Positions 58,134-64,000 of a DNA stretch of 64,000 bases are shown here, one piece after another. The translations under genes and the position numbers were made by a program. The stretch lies in contig CAIXFN010000028.1 in NCBI GenBank assembly GCA_903918755.1, positions 1 through 64,000 of the forward strand, in the 5' to 3' direction. How positions within the stretch are numbered: position 1 is the stretch's first letter; every line of letters begins with the position of its first letter. The DNA is from an uncultured Pedosphaera sp. Lineage in GTDB: Bacteria; Verrucomicrobiota; Verrucomicrobiia; Limisphaerales; Pedosphaeraceae. The notes beneath the pieces are model-generated. The model saw only the letters and a program-made list of their open reading frames with translations, did not search any database and had not been told where the DNA came from.

Positions 58134-58760
58134 ATGAGCGGAAAGCATGAACATTGGCTCCCGGTCGAAGCGCGGAATGTCACCGCCAACTCGGCCGGGG
58201 CCTGGGCGGCGGGCACGGGAAGGGCAGAAGCCCCTCCTGGCACCATGCCGGAAGGAAAAGCAGAGGCCGTGAACAAAGCAGTGAACGAAAATAAAGCGCC
58301 ACTCGGATTACGAACTGTGGCGCTCTTCGAGTTTGCCAAAGGCACATTGGTTTTCCTCGTGGGATTGGGAGCGCTTTCGCTCATTCATCACAATGTGGAA
58401 GCTTCCGTGGAGGAAATTCTGCGCACGTTGCATCTGGATCCCGCCTGGCACTATGCGCACATGTTCGTGGAAGCCACGTCCAAGCTGAATGACCACAGCC
58501 TGCGGATGGTGGGGTTCGCCGCCATGGCCTACGCGATCATCCGTTATGTGGAGGCTTACGGGCTGTGGCACAGCCGCGCCTGGGCGGAATGGTTTGCCGT
58601 GGTTTCTGCTTCCCTCTACGTACCGGTGGAAATTTATCACCTGAGCAAAGGCTTGAATTGGGCGCGGGTAGCCGTGTTTGTCGGCAATATCATCATCGTG
58701 CTCTACCTGGCCCATCTGCTCCGCATCAAACACCGGCAAAAGCATCCCAAGCCGGACTAA
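58134..58760 (+). CDS. DUF2127 membrane protein
   Basis: About four hydrophobic helices follow a soluble N-terminus, with landmarks 'LRTVALFEFAKGTLVFLVGLG', 'RMVGFAAMAYAIIRYVEAYGL', 'AEWFAVVSASLYVPVEIYHL' and 'NIIIVLYLAHLLRI' that match DUF2127. Function is unknown. The conserved region begins near residue 55; ATG 58245 would be a shorter start that still keeps it. Confidence 0.8.
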   Translation: MSGKHEHWLPVEARNVTANSAGAWAAGTGRAEAPPGTMPEGKAEAVNKAVNENKAPLGLRTVALFEFAKGTLVFLVGLGALSLIHHNVEASVEEILRTLHLDPAWHYAHMFVEATSKLNDHSLRMVGFAAMAYAIIRYVEAYGLWHSRAWAEWFAVVSASLYVPVEIYHLSKGLNWARVAVFVGNIIIVLYLAHLLRIKHRQKHPKPD

Positions 58761-58809
58761 AATCCGGCCCGGGCGCCCACGATCGCCGGCCCGTCCCGGC
58801 CTCCCCGGT

Positions 58810-60000
58810 TTAGTTGGTTGGCCGGGCAACCCGGTAAAACCGCGTGGCGTTGGTCAGACCGTCCAGCACCGACATATTGGTCGCACTGGCCACGACGTTG
58901 GTGAGCGTGTTCCAAGTGCGCAGGTCGGGCGAAAACTGCACCCGATAATTCGTCCCCATCAGGGCGTTGAAGTTCAGGGCCAAGCCGCCCGCGGCTTGCA
59001 GGATTGGCGAGAGCGTCACCGGCGGCACGGTCACCGTCAGGGTGGCGTTCGAACTGGTGATGCTGCCGAGACTGTTCGTGATGAGCACGGAGTAATTTCC
59101 CGCATTAAACGTCTGCGCCACCGGAATGCTGTAGCCCGCGCCCGTGGCGCCCGCGATATTGTTCCCGTTGAACAGCCATTGATAACTGAGCGGGGCACCG
59201 CCGCCCGCCACGACCGAAAAGGCGGCCGCACCACCGGCAATCAGGGACTGGTTCGTGGGTTGGGCGCTGATGGAAGGGGGGGCATTGATGGTCAGGGTGG
59301 CCACCGCGCTGGTGACGGCGCCGGCGGCGTTCGTCACCACGACCGTGTAAGCCCCGGCATCGCCCAACACGAGATTGGTCCGGGAATAGGAATTGGTGGT
59401 GGCGCCGGAGATATTTACTCCCGCCAGGCGCCACTGGTAGCGAAGGGGCGCACTGCCGGAAGCGCCGACGGCAAAGGAGGCGATGCTGCCCAGATTGTTG
59501 GTCCGGCTGGCGGGTTGGTTGGTGATGACGGGGGCCCCGGAATTGATGGTGAAAGCGAAGACGGAGCTGACCGAATTGCCGGTGTTGCCGGCAAACTCCC
59601 ACGCCGTGATGGTAATATTGGAAACGCCGACAGTCGTGGGAATTCCCCCGATCCGGCCGTTGCTATTCGTAAGCCACAAGCCGGGGACCAGCGGATAAAC
59701 GGCGGAGCCCTTGGGCGCGGTCGAAGCGCTCCAGGAAAACGCGGTCTGCCCGGCGGTGGTCAGGCCGCGGAGATAAACCGCCCCCGTGTTGGTCGTGACC
59801 GCATAGGGGGGATTGATGATGGTGGCGCCCGAAACGGCATGATAACTGGAGAGGTAGGCCACGGCACCGGCCGACAATTGGAGCACGAAAGCCCAGGCGG
59901 AGGAAGTGGCCAGGGCGGTGGCGGGCAGGGCCGGACGCAACAGCGGCAGCAGTTGGAGCACGGAGGCTAATACGAGGGCGAGGAAACGTTTTACTTTCAT
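58810..60000 (-). CDS. Exported protein with two Ig-like domains
   Basis: A signal peptide (MKVKRFLALVLASVLQLLP) is followed by a cadherin/putative-Ig-like stretch (about 50-155). Two Ig-like repeats come next (160-330; 'APLRYQWRLAGVNISGATTN' and 'APLSYQWLFNGNNIAGATGA'). A C-terminal domain has 'NYRVQFSPDLRTWNTL' and ends 'TRFYRVARP', typical of verrucomicrobial exported proteins. It is the last gene of the same-strand row that begins with the DUF3570 gene, 10 bases after the dsbD stop. Likely an adhesive or structural surface protein. Confidence 0.85.
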   Translation of the reverse strand: MKVKRFLALVLASVLQLLPLLRPALPATALATSSAWAFVLQLSAGAVAYLSSYHAVSGATIINPPYAVTTNTGAVYLRGLTTAGQTAFSWSASTAPKGSAVYPLVPGLWLTNSNGRIGGIPTTVGVSNITITAWEFAGNTGNSVSSVFAFTINSGAPVITNQPASRTNNLGSIASFAVGASGSAPLRYQWRLAGVNISGATTNSYSRTNLVLGDAGAYTVVVTNAAGAVTSAVATLTINAPPSISAQPTNQSLIAGGAAAFSVVAGGGAPLSYQWLFNGNNIAGATGAGYSIPVAQTFNAGNYSVLITNSLGSITSSNATLTVTVPPVTLSPILQAAGGLALNFNALMGTNYRVQFSPDLRTWNTLTNVVASATNMSVLDGLTNATRFYRVARPTN

Positions 60001-60010
60001 ACAACGAGGG

Positions 60011-61651
60011 TCATTCTTTTTTGGGCTGAAGCACGACATAAGTGGGCAATCCAATCACACCAAAATAATCGAGGGCCTGCCGGGCGGGCGCCTGATTCGG
60101 CTGCTCGGCCAGATACTGGACGACGATGAAATCCTGCAACCGCTGTTTGACCTCCGCGGTGTTGAAAACCGTCTCATCCATGGCCAGGCAGTTTTTGCAC
60201 CAACTGGCCGCGAAATCCACAAACACCGGGCGGCCTTCCTCCCGGCCCTTCCGCAAGGCCTCCGCCAGGGCGGCGTTGGCAGCGGCGGCCTGGTCACGGT
60301 TGCCCACAAAGGCCGCCGCCACGCCCGCGAGCTGCCGGCGGGCCTGAAACAGGTTCCAGCCCAGGTGTCCGTAATAGGCGGCGAACACCAGAATGAGCAC
60401 ACCGAAAACGTGCTTGATGGATTTCATCCAGCGGCCAGGTTTGGGGAGGAAGCTCAGGCCGGCGCCCGCGAACGGCCAGGGCAACGCCATGCCCACGCCC
60501 AGCAGGAACGGCAGCAACAGCCCGGCCATGATTCCCTGGCTGTACAACTGGGTGGCCAGCAGCAGCACGGAGATAACCACCGGGGCCACACACGCCCCCG
60601 CCAGCAGCGAGGCCACCACCCCGATGGAGAAAGCCAGGACAAACGGACTTTTCGCCTCCGCCCCCGGTTTGCCGCCCCGTTGGAAGCGGGAAAAGTCCAC
60701 ATTCACGAGATCAAACATGGCCAGGCCCATGACCACGAATACCAGGGCGATCACGGCATTGAACCAGACGGAAGAATTGAGGGCGCCGAATTTGGCTCCG
60801 GTCAAAACCACCACCAGGCCGAGCGTGCCGTAGGTGAGGGCCATCCCGGCGCCGTAAATTCCCCCGAGCGTAAAACCGCGACCACGGGACTTGGCCCGCG
60901 CCCCGGCGCCAATGATGGCCAGATTGATCGGAATCAAAGGCAGCACACAAGGCGTGAGATTGAGACCAATTCCTCCCAGCACGATGAAAAAGAGCGTCGC
61001 GGCCAGTCCCAGCCTTTCAAAACGCGCGAGGGGTCCCTCCCCCAACCCATGGCCGGATTTGGCCGCGGACAGAAAAGCCAGAAAATTGTTGGCGGGCATA
61101 TAACCCGTCTCGCGTCCCACCACCCGGTAGGCTTCCGCGTCCGCCTGCCACACCTGGGTAAAGCCCACGGCCGGGCGGGCGGATTCGGTCGCCGGTTCCG
61201 CCGGCGGCGGAGCGGTGGGGGCAATGCTGTTCGTGGTGAGGGTAAAGGCATGCCGCTCGGGAAAATAGCAGGCGGAATTGCTGCAACCCTGAAAACGGAC
61301 GACGAGTTCCGCGGGCAGGACGGCCCCCAATTGCAACTCGGCCGCGAAGGAATGGTTGTAAACACTTTTCTCATGCCCGGTCACGGGATCCGGCAGGACC
61401 TGGGGAGGCGGAATTTTGGTCGGGGTCAGTTCGACGCCGGCATCCGTTTCAAAATGCAATTTGGCCGAATACAAAACATGCTCCGGCGGCACTTTGAAGT
61501 TGAAGCGGACCAGGGCCAATCCGTTCGAGTGATCCAAACTGGCCGTCAGTCCAAAGGGACTGGCGGGCCGTTGGGCGAAAAGCTCCCCGGCCGCCGCGAG
61601 CCAGGTCAACAGCAGGAGCAATCCACGTGAGAATGAACGGGAGGAAACCAT
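60011..61651 (-). CDS. dsbD: Thiol:disulfide interchange protein DsbD
   Basis: This is a complete DsbD: an N-terminal beta domain with Cys pair 'GCSNSACYFP', an eight-helix membrane domain with transfer Cys in 'LNLTPCVLPLIPINLAI' and 'LLAGACVAPVVISVLLL', and a C-terminal thioredoxin domain with 'ASWCKNCLAMDE' (WCKNC). It carries electrons from cytoplasmic thioredoxin to periplasmic partners. ATG 61651 has GAAGG eight bases upstream and begins 11 bases after the DUF4266 stop; TTG 61666 would overlap it. Its product likely recharges the TlpA-like protein encoded upstream. Confidence 0.93.
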   Translation of the reverse strand: MVSSRSFSRGLLLLLTWLAAAGELFAQRPASPFGLTASLDHSNGLALVRFNFKVPPEHVLYSAKLHFETDAGVELTPTKIPPPQVLPDPVTGHEKSVYNHSFAAELQLGAVLPAELVVRFQGCSNSACYFPERHAFTLTTNSIAPTAPPPAEPATESARPAVGFTQVWQADAEAYRVVGRETGYMPANNFLAFLSAAKSGHGLGEGPLARFERLGLAATLFFIVLGGIGLNLTPCVLPLIPINLAIIGAGARAKSRGRGFTLGGIYGAGMALTYGTLGLVVVLTGAKFGALNSSVWFNAVIALVFVVMGLAMFDLVNVDFSRFQRGGKPGAEAKSPFVLAFSIGVVASLLAGACVAPVVISVLLLATQLYSQGIMAGLLLPFLLGVGMALPWPFAGAGLSFLPKPGRWMKSIKHVFGVLILVFAAYYGHLGWNLFQARRQLAGVAAAFVGNRDQAAAANAALAEALRKGREEGRPVFVDFAASWCKNCLAMDETVFNTAEVKQRLQDFIVVQYLAEQPNQAPARQALDYFGVIGLPTYVVLQPKKE

Positions 61652-61662
61652 CGGTACAGCCT

Positions 61663-61884
61663 TCAATTGCAGCCGCAGCCGCCGCCACCCACCCCGCGGC
61701 CACCAGAAGCCGCTTCGCGCGAGAAATAAATATGTTCATCCTGCATGACGAGCACGGGGTCGCGATCCGCCCGCATGATCGGATCCGCCAGGGTGCCGCG
61801 CTGCCAGGGCTTCACTTGCTGGCAACCGGGGGCGGCGGCAAGCAGCGGGAGGACAACGGCGAATAAAGCGATTCGGTTTTTCAT
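61663..61884 (-). CDS. DUF4266 mini-lipoprotein with C-terminal GGGGCGCN
   Basis: The 73-residue product has a signal peptide with a probable lipobox Cys (C21 in 'AAAPGCQQV'). It then has the DUF4266 body 'VKPWQRGTLADPIMRAD' and 'EHIYFSREAASGG', and ends in GVGGGGCGCN (Cys 70 and 72). Such proteins accompany DUF3570 and ApbE genes. The invariant Gly/Cys tail next to redox genes suggests a thiol or metal centre or a modification site; this is inference. Seven bases separate it from tlpA. Confidence 0.85.
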   Translation of the reverse strand: MKNRIALFAVVLPLLAAAPGCQQVKPWQRGTLADPIMRADRDPVLVMQDEHIYFSREAASGGRGVGGGGCGCN

Positions 61885-61891
61885 GATCAGA

Positions 61892-62398
61892 CTATTTCTT
61901 CAGCAGGGATTCGATCTCGGCCTGGTATTTCTTGCGGGTTTCGGCGCCCCGGAAGCCGGTATGGGCGAAGCGCACTTTGCCGCTGCGGTCGATTAAAAAG
62001 GAACTGGGCATGGTCGCCACGCCGACCTTTTCCACCAATTTTTGCTTCGCATCGCGCACCACCACAAACGTGGCCGCGTTTTTCTTCAGAAACTCTTCCA
62101 TGTCCGCTTTGTTCTCATCCACGTTGATCGCGATGATCACAAAGCCCTGTGGTCCGTATTGCTTTTGCAACTCCTCCATGACGGGGAAGGATTCCCGGCA
62201 GGGATCACACCAGGAGGCCCAAAAATCCAGCAGCACCACCTTGTCCTTCAAGGTGTCCGGCAGTTTCCCCTCCAGTTTGAAGGGCGCGAGGTCCGGGGCA
62301 TCGTCGCCGGCCTTGAGGGCCGCGGCCACGGTGAGGGCACTGCAAAGGCCGCCCAGGAGGAGGGCCAGCAGATAATTTCTAAGAGGTCGTGTACGCAT
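61892..62398 (-). CDS. TlpA-like periplasmic thioredoxin
   Basis: The N-terminal hydrophobic helix (LLALLLGGLCSALTVAAAL) anchors or exports the protein. The thioredoxin domain has 'LLDFWASWCDPCRESFPVMEEL' with the WCDPC active site, 'AINVDENKADMEEFL' and the cis-Pro region 'VATMPSSFLID'. The start overlaps the end of apbE by 20 bases. It is expected to be reduced by the DsbD encoded downstream and to act on envelope disulfides, possibly those of the DUF4266 tail. Confidence 0.9.
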   Translation of the reverse strand: MRTRPLRNYLLALLLGGLCSALTVAAALKAGDDAPDLAPFKLEGKLPDTLKDKVVLLDFWASWCDPCRESFPVMEELQKQYGPQGFVIIAINVDENKADMEEFLKKNAATFVVVRDAKQKLVEKVGVATMPSSFLIDRSGKVRFAHTGFRGAETRKKYQAEIESLLKK

Positions 62399-63377
62399 AA
62401 AATCCAGGGGACATGTGGCGCGTGGTTTCCGTGGTCAGGCAGCCCTCCGCGCCCGGGCAGAGCCGCATCATTTGCAAACCTTCCGCCGGTCCCAGCACAA
62501 ACGCCGCGGTGGACAAGATTCCGGCAAAAGTGCAGTTCGGGGCGATGACCGAAACCGCGAGGGTGCCATTGTCCACCGGGTACCCGGTCCGGGGATCCAG
62601 GAGATGGCCATAGCGGCGCCCTTCGCAGACAAAGTTACGCATGTAGTTGCCGGAAGTGGCCACCGCGTGGTTGGTCACCGCCACCCCCGTCCAGCAGCGG
62701 GCGGGATTGACCGGGTCCTGGAGGCCGATGTGCCAGGCGCCCCGTTCCGGGGGTTCGCCGTGCACGCGCACGTCCTGCCCGAAATCCACCAACACGTCCG
62801 GAATACCGCGTTCCAACGCCAGGCCAATTACACGGTCAACGGCGTATTCCTTGCCGATGCCCCCGAAGTCGAGCGCCATGCCCGCCCGCGGGAGAAAGAG
62901 CCCGCCCGGCCGACGCTGCAATTTGCGCCAGCCGACCAACTCCCGCGCCGCCTGGACGGCGGCATCGGAAGGAATTACAGGGGCCTCCGCCTTCCAGTTC
63001 CACAACTGGATCAGCGGCAGGGCGGTGGGATCGAATACGCCCCGGGTAAAAAAGATCATTTCCTGGCAGAGATTTAAAATCCCCTCCGTTTCGGGATCCA
63101 CCTCCACCCAGTGCCGGCCCGCCGCGGCGTTGATCCGGCAGATCAGACTGTCCGGCAGAAAGCGCGAATACCGCGCCTCGAAGGCCGCCACCCACTCCAG
63201 CACCTCCGCCTGGAACGCCCGGGCCAGGGCCGGTTGCGTGGTCCGGAAGTTCACCCGGCAGAGGGTGCTCATGGCCTGGAAGCTCAGCTGGTAAAAGCCC
63301 GCGGTGGCGGTCTGCCGCGCCGACCGACTCACGCGTTCCCGCACCGTGGGATTAGTTTGGGGGAGCGTCAAAACCAT
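62379..63377 (-). CDS. apbE: FAD:protein FMN transferase ApbE
   Basis: The ApbE domain shows 'ARYSRFLPDSLICRINAAAG', 'GMALDFGGIGKEYAVDRV', 'AVATSGNYMRNF' and 'GHLLDPRTGYPV' in the family order. ApbE attaches FMN from FAD to Thr/Ser of exported or membrane flavoproteins. ATG 63377 (MVLTLPQTN) overlaps the DUF3570 stop by 10 bases. No clear signal peptide is seen. The target flavoprotein is not evident in the window. Confidence 0.93.
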   Translation of the reverse strand: MVLTLPQTNPTVRERVSRSARQTATAGFYQLSFQAMSTLCRVNFRTTQPALARAFQAEVLEWVAAFEARYSRFLPDSLICRINAAAGRHWVEVDPETEGILNLCQEMIFFTRGVFDPTALPLIQLWNWKAEAPVIPSDAAVQAARELVGWRKLQRRPGGLFLPRAGMALDFGGIGKEYAVDRVIGLALERGIPDVLVDFGQDVRVHGEPPERGAWHIGLQDPVNPARCWTGVAVTNHAVATSGNYMRNFVCEGRRYGHLLDPRTGYPVDNGTLAVSVIAPNCTFAGILSTAAFVLGPAEGLQMMRLCPGAEGCLTTETTRHMSPGFYAYTTS

Positions 63378-64000
63378 AGGCGCGCGCCGACGGAATAAAC
63401 ACACGCGGCCGGGTAGGCGCTTTGATCGGTCACCCCGTCCAGTCCCCGCATGGTGTAGCGGCGAAAACTCGCATCCAACGTCAGCCAGTCCACCACTCGC
63501 CAGTTCAGATTGACGCCGCCGGTAAACGTTTCCATCGCGGACAACCGGTAATCCGAGGTGAAATAAGGCGGGGGCGTGGCCAAATCATCAAAATGGGTGG
63601 CATAGAAATCCGCGCTGGTCTGCCGGTAATACCGAACCAAGGGAGCCACCACGACGTGCCGGCCCAGTTTTTGGTACCACGCCAATTCCCAGGTGTGCGC
63701 GGTGATGCCGAACGAATCAACGAACAAGCGGTAGGAACCCTCGACACTGGCCTGCAAAGGCGTGACGGCCTGGGTCAGTCCCAGATAAGTGATAAAGCGG
63801 TTGCGATGCCGCGGCAATTGTTCGCCTTTCAAGGCCAGATCACTGGTGGGATCCTGATAGTAAGGCGACCCGTTCAAATTATCAAACAGCACGCCCTTGT
63901 ATTGGTCGTCCAGATAACCGCGGGAATTGCCGTAAGTGAAATTGGCCGTGAACACCGTCTTGGGCCCCAGCAATTGATTCACCCCGATGAGAAAGTCGTC
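63368..64000 (-). CDS. DUF3570 outer-membrane barrel protein, C-terminal part
   Basis: The reading frame is open to the window edge and ends at 63368; only the C-terminal 210 residues are present. Alternating aromatic beta strands ('NRFITYLGLTQAVTPLQASVEGSYRLFVD', 'GGVNLNWRVVDWLTLDASFRRYTM') and the final Phe (GARLWF) fit an outer-membrane beta barrel of the DUF3570 type. It heads the ApbE/TlpA/DUF4266/DsbD operon. Confidence 0.85.
   Translation of the reverse strand, partial: DDFLIGVNQLLGPKTVFTANFTYGNSRGYLDDQYKGVLFDNLNGSPYYQDPTSDLALKGEQLPRHRNRFITYLGLTQAVTPLQASVEGSYRLFVDSFGITAHTWELAWYQKLGRHVVVAPLVRYYRQTSADFYATHFDDLATPPPYFTSDYRLSAMETFTGGVNLNWRVVDWLTLDASFRRYTMRGLDGVTDQSAYPAACVYSVGARLWF

Follow-up and report, generated by a model that had tools for sequence, protein, structure and literature searches.

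What do the tightly packed genes at the end of this stretch of DNA from an uncultured Pedosphaera sp. encode, and how much of the answer is already in print? The stretch, 64,000 nucleotides long and referred to below as the window, forms positions 1 to 64,000 of contig CAIXFN010000028.1 (Verrucomicrobiota; Verrucomicrobiia; Limisphaerales). A first-pass annotation had recognized there an operon for an outer-membrane barrel (DUF3570), a flavin transferase (ApbE), a TlpA-like thioredoxin, a small lipoprotein (DUF4266) and a DsbD protein. We find a sixth gene and consider it probable that the locus, as an operon of six genes, belongs to the known DUF3570/ApbE/TlpA/DUF4266 flavinylation system of the DsbD type, which would relay electrons from thiols to flavins at the outer membrane. 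The sixth gene encodes a protein with immunoglobulin-like (Ig) domains behind an N-terminal tag, and this tagged protein is a class-specific obligate partner of the DUF3570 system.

Gene content and published counterpart

Six minus-strand genes occupy 58810-64000, with neighbors that overlap or stand at most 11 nt apart. They are given here in the order in which they follow one another on that strand (DUF3570, apbE, tlpA-like, DUF4266, dsbD, Ig-domain gene), together with the hairpin behind them; all five named families exceed the Pfam cut-offs.

63368..64000, minus strand: DUF3570 outer-membrane barrel, C-terminal 210 amino acids in the window (Pfam PF12094, E=7e-63, 213 bits)
62379..63377, minus strand: ApbE flavin mononucleotide (FMN) transferase of a subfamily without signal peptide (DFGGIGKEYAVD; AGILST) (Pfam PF02424, E=9e-73, 245 bits)
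61892..62398, minus strand: TlpA/ResA-like exported thioredoxin, active site WCDPC (PF08534/PF13905, Redoxin/Thioredoxin_8)
61663..61884, minus strand: DUF4266 small lipoprotein, 73 amino acids, lipobox APGC, C-terminal SREAASGGRGVGGGGCGCN (PF14086, E=3e-23, 83 bits)
60011..61651, minus strand: DsbD with N-terminal alpha domain, DsbD_TM and C-terminal Thioredoxin_7 (PF11412 for DsbD_N, PF02683, PF13899)
58810..60000, minus strand: sixth gene, 396 amino acids, N-terminal tag of two helices with HAVSGAT, followed by Ig-like domains (Ig_3/I-set Pfam; tag model A3, E=3.5e-22)
58746..58773 (L003 2774-2747), minus strand: terminator-like hairpin 3' of the sixth gene, 12-bp stem, 8 G-C (consensus match only)

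The apbE ATG (63377) lies inside the final codons of the DUF3570 gene (TATGGTTTTGA), a layout found in many relatives, and overlaps the DUF3570 end by 10 nt. Further along, apbE shares 20 nt with tlpA, tlpA is separated from DUF4266 by 7 nt, DUF4266 from the dsbD ATG (61651) by 11 nt (or overlaps it by 4 nt if a TTG start is used), and dsbD from the ATG of the sixth gene (60000) by 10 nt. The DUF3570 gene is truncated by the window end; the full gene of 409 amino acids reaches approximately contig position 64597 (L003:7369-8598), and its signal peptide and HDAISGASPAG site are both outside the window. Pfam matches and measured spacing thus bear out the five tightly packed genes on one strand, while the operon extent first given, 60011-64000, leaves out the sixth gene that follows and the part of DUF3570 beyond the window.

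The five-gene set corresponds to what Meheust et al. (eLife 2021, PMC8238504) called the "DsbD system". These authors reported 285 DsbD clusters, of which 227 contain DUF3570 and 221 contain DUF4266, and a further 316 that lack DsbD; they also pointed out the C-terminal CXC of DUF4266 and described flavinylation of Chlorobium luteolum DUF3570 by ApbE at two SGA[ST] sites. In the Pedosphaera operon apbE, DUF3570, the thioredoxin-like gene, DUF4266 and DsbD are co-encoded, the full DUF3570 carries one DxxSGA[ST] site (HDAISGASP), and DUF4266 ends in a CXC (GGGGCGCN). The core proposal of the first-pass annotation, an envelope redox device that needs reduced thiols and possibly covalent FMN, agrees with that work; it was therefore largely right and already published. 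The sixth gene, the features of the ApbE clade and the modelled barrel appear to be absent from the main texts of the published accounts, and neither the main text of a later structural survey (PMC11334425) nor that of a 2025 ApbE review (PMC12052999) mentions DUF3570.

Co-occurrence was assessed in 245 genomes of the order and in a second sample of 388 genomes of the phylum. Loci overlap between collections and counts are on distinct sequences, with related genomes still included; some clusters are cut by the contig ends of metagenome-assembled genomes (MAGs). DUF3570 was present in 70 of the 245 genomes and DUF4266 in 67, every one among those 70 (p ~4e-57, on a table whose cells are genomes and not independent events), so that the neighborhood, as the first-pass annotation anticipated, is kept together far beyond chance. 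ApbE was found in 237 of the 245, and its presence at the genome level is therefore uninformative; its placement in the cluster is informative. Cluster gene order was repeated in dozens of loci of Verrucomicrobiota and Proteobacteria, the proteobacterial clusters having an order of their own (TlpA-DUF4266-DUF3570-ApbE). The CxxC of TlpA was retained in 103/106 homologues and the CXC of DUF4266 in 129/131. DsbD, present here and previously counted as an operon member, adjoined 33/117 Verrucomicrobiota-side clusters and 1/14 others, which indicates an optional component, or one provided in trans.

The linked ApbE and the DUF3570 barrel

The ApbE proteins encoded with DUF3570 differed from the other ApbEs of the order. 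Using a simple rule of our own for signal peptides (not SignalP), we detected none in 107 distinct linked ApbEs of Verrucomicrobiota and Proteobacteria, whatever start codon was allowed, versus 19 in 33 other ApbEs under the same strict settings; a looser rule called 6 linked proteins (mostly within the domain itself) versus 26/33 of the others. The ApbE of the window likewise has neither an N-terminal signal peptide nor a lipobox. The 107 proteins formed one clade (support 0.994), with GKE where others have AKG, and in all of them the Asp of [AS]-D-A-x-x-T was replaced by Gly, a change seen in 0/33 of the others. The conserved catalytic residues of Vibrio cholerae ApbE are Ser241, His257 and Asp285 (PMC12052999). 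Linked ApbEs keep the Ser and the His, and the Asp of the Thermotoga maritima and Treponema pallidum enzymes aligns to their Gly, which points to this position as the equivalent of Asp285; accordingly, the window protein has the Ser and His motifs and Gly in place of the triad Asp. The extra Glu of GKE may take over the carboxylate role.

Since the linked ApbE has no recognizable export signal, flavin attachment is most likely cytosolic and on the unfolded precursor, and we believe that the barrel is probably flavinylated before export. The linked enzyme is not an exported ApbE, a point that the first-pass annotation missed. The flavinylation target is DUF3570 itself, with its motif just outside the window. 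The published cluster filter was content with a signal peptide in a single target gene out of the four in each cluster (PMC8238504), so that an unexported ApbE would pass it. Another ApbE of the window genome, not linked to DUF3570 (L121; G000:C14:73284-74105), also seemed to be without a signal peptide.

To look at the substrate, we used an AlphaFold model of a 58%-identical DUF3570 homologue from a Verrucomicrobiales MAG (L054), built from 52 sequences with a predicted local distance difference test score (pLDDT) of 97. The model is a 16-strand barrel whose loops measure 4/28/2/9/31/4/28/11 residues at one end and 2-7 at the opposite one, and the terminal residue is F or W in 114/125 homologues; the even number of antiparallel strands, the aromatic C-terminus and the long loops on one side are those of an outer-membrane beta-barrel. 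In such proteins the long-loop side is usually extracellular, and because of this topology we took it as such here. The SGAS site falls at the end of strand 3 on that side, so the model would place the flavin at the extracellular end of the barrel. Of the 66 most conserved residues, 45 were in the upper third or the extracellular loops. Almost every DUF3570 had the site, D-x-[ILV]-[ST]-G-A-[ST], and its G and P were invariant. A second SGA[ST] site, apparently located in the same loop, was present in several proteobacterial members (L096, L105, L111, L112 and L118) and missing from the verrucomicrobial proteins. Mature barrels contained no Cys in 68/125 cases and one in 39, which makes thiol exchange within the barrel unlikely and flavin a plausible redox group. 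A PDB fold search with the model returned generic barrels only (best query template-modelling score <0.6) and no functional lead.

There were also clusters that had no local apbE (L025, L034, L041, L043, L064, L073, L103, L106, L168 and L199). Wherever their DUF3570 site was read, SGA[ST] was retained (SGQT in L106), and flavinylation in these genomes would need an ApbE encoded elsewhere.

The sixth gene, its tag and its surroundings

When the neighbor proteins around about 90 loci were clustered to seek recurrent families, a single recurrent extra family emerged, that of the sixth gene. Its members are alike only over the N-terminal 60-80 residues, a tag with the consensus LLQ..PL.R ... A..L.W..GA.A.LG..[DH]AVSGA[ST] that no Pfam or NCBIfam model matches; C-terminal to it are Ig_3/I-set/He_PIG or Ig_7 repeats in very variable number. 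The tag gene stood directly after DUF4266 or DsbD in 97/109 clusters with enough sequence. Across the order, tag profile A3 matched 68/245 genomes, all DUF3570-positive (68/70 DUF3570 genomes versus 0/175 others, p=6e-59). The model was trained on cluster-adjacent copies, so the search, with 14-22 candidates scored per genome, favors them; in spite of this, 25/108 copies (17 genomes) were in trans, on contigs without the cluster, and no copy turned up in a DUF3570-negative genome of the order. In the sample of 388 genomes, DUF3570 was present in 25/26 tag genomes, the exception (G438) being a weak partial match (E=5e-4); within the class 25/26 DUF3570 genomes had the tag, versus 0/16 outside it.

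The motif of the tag in the window, HAVSGAT, resembles the ApbE target. This target is D-x-x-[ST]-G-A-[ST], and its seven residues are enough; modification is little affected when Asp is changed to Ala and falls by half when Gly is changed to Ala (PMC12052999). Among 114 distinct tags, the acceptor Ser/Thr was present in all, the preceding Ala (A-[ST]) in 111, Ser at the fourth position in 102 and Gly in 88, and the first residue was His in 58 and Asp in 50; the target pattern was satisfied by 31 tags strictly and by 70 with D or H first. The Gly was lost more often where the locus had no apbE, significantly so in a first count and with p=0.002 once obvious sister loci had been collapsed, phylogeny being not fully controlled; in the first count, L047 had been mis-scored as lacking apbE, a gene that the longer locus L162 shows to be further upstream. 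AlphaFold (pLDDT 85) predicted helices at 2-21 and 35-55, then the motif in a low-confidence linker and an Ig-like sandwich. Because of the likeness to the ApbE target and to the DA[IV]SGA[ST] of DUF3570, and because every tag has the Ser/Thr acceptor, the tagged Ig protein is a probable, unproven second client of ApbE, and we give flavinylation of the tag itself nearly, not quite, an even chance.

Three other explanations have to be weighed. The tag could serve export only, as a long two-part signal peptide cut by signal peptidase I at S-x-A|[ST], the Ig protein being an unflavinylated surface partner of the barrel. This is a serious contender that we hold somewhat improbable: a small residue at -3, a variable one at -2 (G/A/Q/S/R/K) and Ala at -1 satisfy the (-3,-1) rule, and the predicted linker between helix 2 and the first Ig-like domain is flexible, but cleavage needs neither the Ser/Thr found at +1 in 114/114 tags nor the Asp/His that comes first in 108/114, and an ordinary Sec signal should also occur outside DUF3570 genomes. 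A sorting signal is the least likely of the three. One short conserved domain on proteins of very unequal length, with copies away from the cluster and strict co-occurrence, is indeed the pattern of a sorting tag, and DUF3570 and DUF4266 might then export or surface-anchor the tagged proteins, while the flavin would be structural or regulatory. However, proteobacterial and other-class clusters have both genes and no detectable tag, which rules out the export of tagged proteins as the core function, and the modelled barrel resembles nothing beyond generic barrels.

An unlikely alternative for the system as a whole is a module for thiol repair or iron assimilation, with the DUF3570 flavin reducing a metal or an oxidized envelope protein. 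It gains from the VIT1 iron transporter encoded in 25 published clusters (PMC8238504), but no recurring metal transporter was found beside the roughly 90 clusters whose neighbors we grouped, where a two-component system (about 10-14 loci) was the commonest after the tag gene. Metal handling, also raised by the first-pass annotation, is neither supported nor contradicted by this.

We found no equivalent of the tag in proteobacterial clusters. In two related loci, of a Methylococcaceae member (L105:2908-4122) and an uncultured proteobacterium (L112:2933-4645), a different exported Ig-like protein follows apbE directly and has DTFSSAS or DTVSGAS near its N-terminus, possibly as an analogous client or by chance (n=2). 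Tandem duplicated clusters, with at least two DUF3570, DUF4266 and tag genes per locus, occurred in L041, L154, L207 and L047/L162. In about ten loci a response regulator and a sensor histidine kinase precede the operon, upstream of DUF3570 (L048, L051, L052, L054, L080, L084 and L073), which suggests regulation by an envelope signal. In the Pedosphaera contig the gene upstream is divergent (DFP domain, L003:8904-9560, plus strand) and the one downstream convergent (DUF2127, 58134-58760, plus strand); the hairpin at 58773-58746, just past the sixth gene, is the strongest terminator-like hairpin of the region. An RNA feature search of the window gave no Rfam match and no tRNA.

A possible flavin conduit and its known relatives

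DsbD draws electrons from thioredoxin in the cytosol, passes them through the inner membrane and reduces TlpA-like proteins. In the scheme that we propose, TlpA and the CXC tail of DUF4266 would relay these electrons over the periplasm, with the CXC as the last thiol carrier, and they would end on FMN covalently bound to DUF3570 at the outer face, an attachment published for C. luteolum (PMC8238504). The flavin would then probably reduce a target in the mouth of the barrel or beyond the cell. The dedicated ApbE would attach flavin to the unfolded precursor in the cytosol and, to judge from the motif, the tagged Ig-repeat protein would probably carry FMN beside its N-terminal helices. The full picture, a trans-envelope flavin conduit whose secreted barrel and class-specific tagged Ig-repeat proteins are pre-flavinylated by a cytosolic ApbE subfamily with the Asp to Gly change, we offer tentatively, as a possibility that may well not hold.

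Several points weigh against the proposed scheme. The strict signal-peptide rule detected just the 19 of 33 control ApbEs already mentioned, and 76/91 TlpAs; the Asp replaced by Gly counts among the conserved ApbE catalytic residues; and the published activity comes from C. luteolum ApbE, which may lie outside this subfamily. Most clusters are without DsbD. In the tag, His is as frequent as Asp at the first position, the Gly that is invariant in DUF3570 is replaced in 26/114, and the S-x-A pattern is also compatible with a signal peptidase I site.

If it were true, the conduit would amount to a cytochrome-free redox relay at the outer membrane, its FMN close to the cell surface. On the usual view, ApbE modifies exported proteins outside the cytosol, and flavin adenine dinucleotide has to be exported for this; a clade dedicated to DUF3570, without recognizable export signal and with an outer-membrane barrel as substrate, makes flavinylation before export directly testable. 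The sixth gene provides an obligate and experimentally tractable partner for an otherwise functionless DUF3570/DUF4266 system, and a place to seek the electron acceptor.

Porin-cytochrome conduits of the MtrAB type also combine redox cofactors with an outer-membrane barrel, which would be a functional likeness, but they use haem and cytochromes instead of the flavin and thiol relay proposed here. With canonical periplasmic ApbE, which flavinylates NqrC and RnfG, the linked enzyme shares the fold and the catalytic Ser/His motifs TSG[DN] and GHxx, and it differs in having no export signal or lipobox, GKEY for AKGY and Gly for the catalytic Asp. The closest relative of the operon is the DsbD system (PMC8238504), alike in having ApbE, DUF3570, a thioredoxin-like protein, DUF4266 with its C-terminal CXC and DsbD in one cluster and DxxSGA[ST] in DUF3570. 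The operon differs by the extra sixth gene (tag plus Ig), by one SGA[ST] site versus two in the published logo and most proteobacterial members, and by an ApbE without signal peptide and triad Asp, three differences on which the main text of that work is silent. A cytosolic ApbE is known from Klebsiella pneumoniae, where it flavinylates a soluble fumarate reductase (PMC12052999); this enzyme also has no signal peptide, but its substrate stays in the cytosol, whereas that of the linked ApbE is an outer-membrane barrel.

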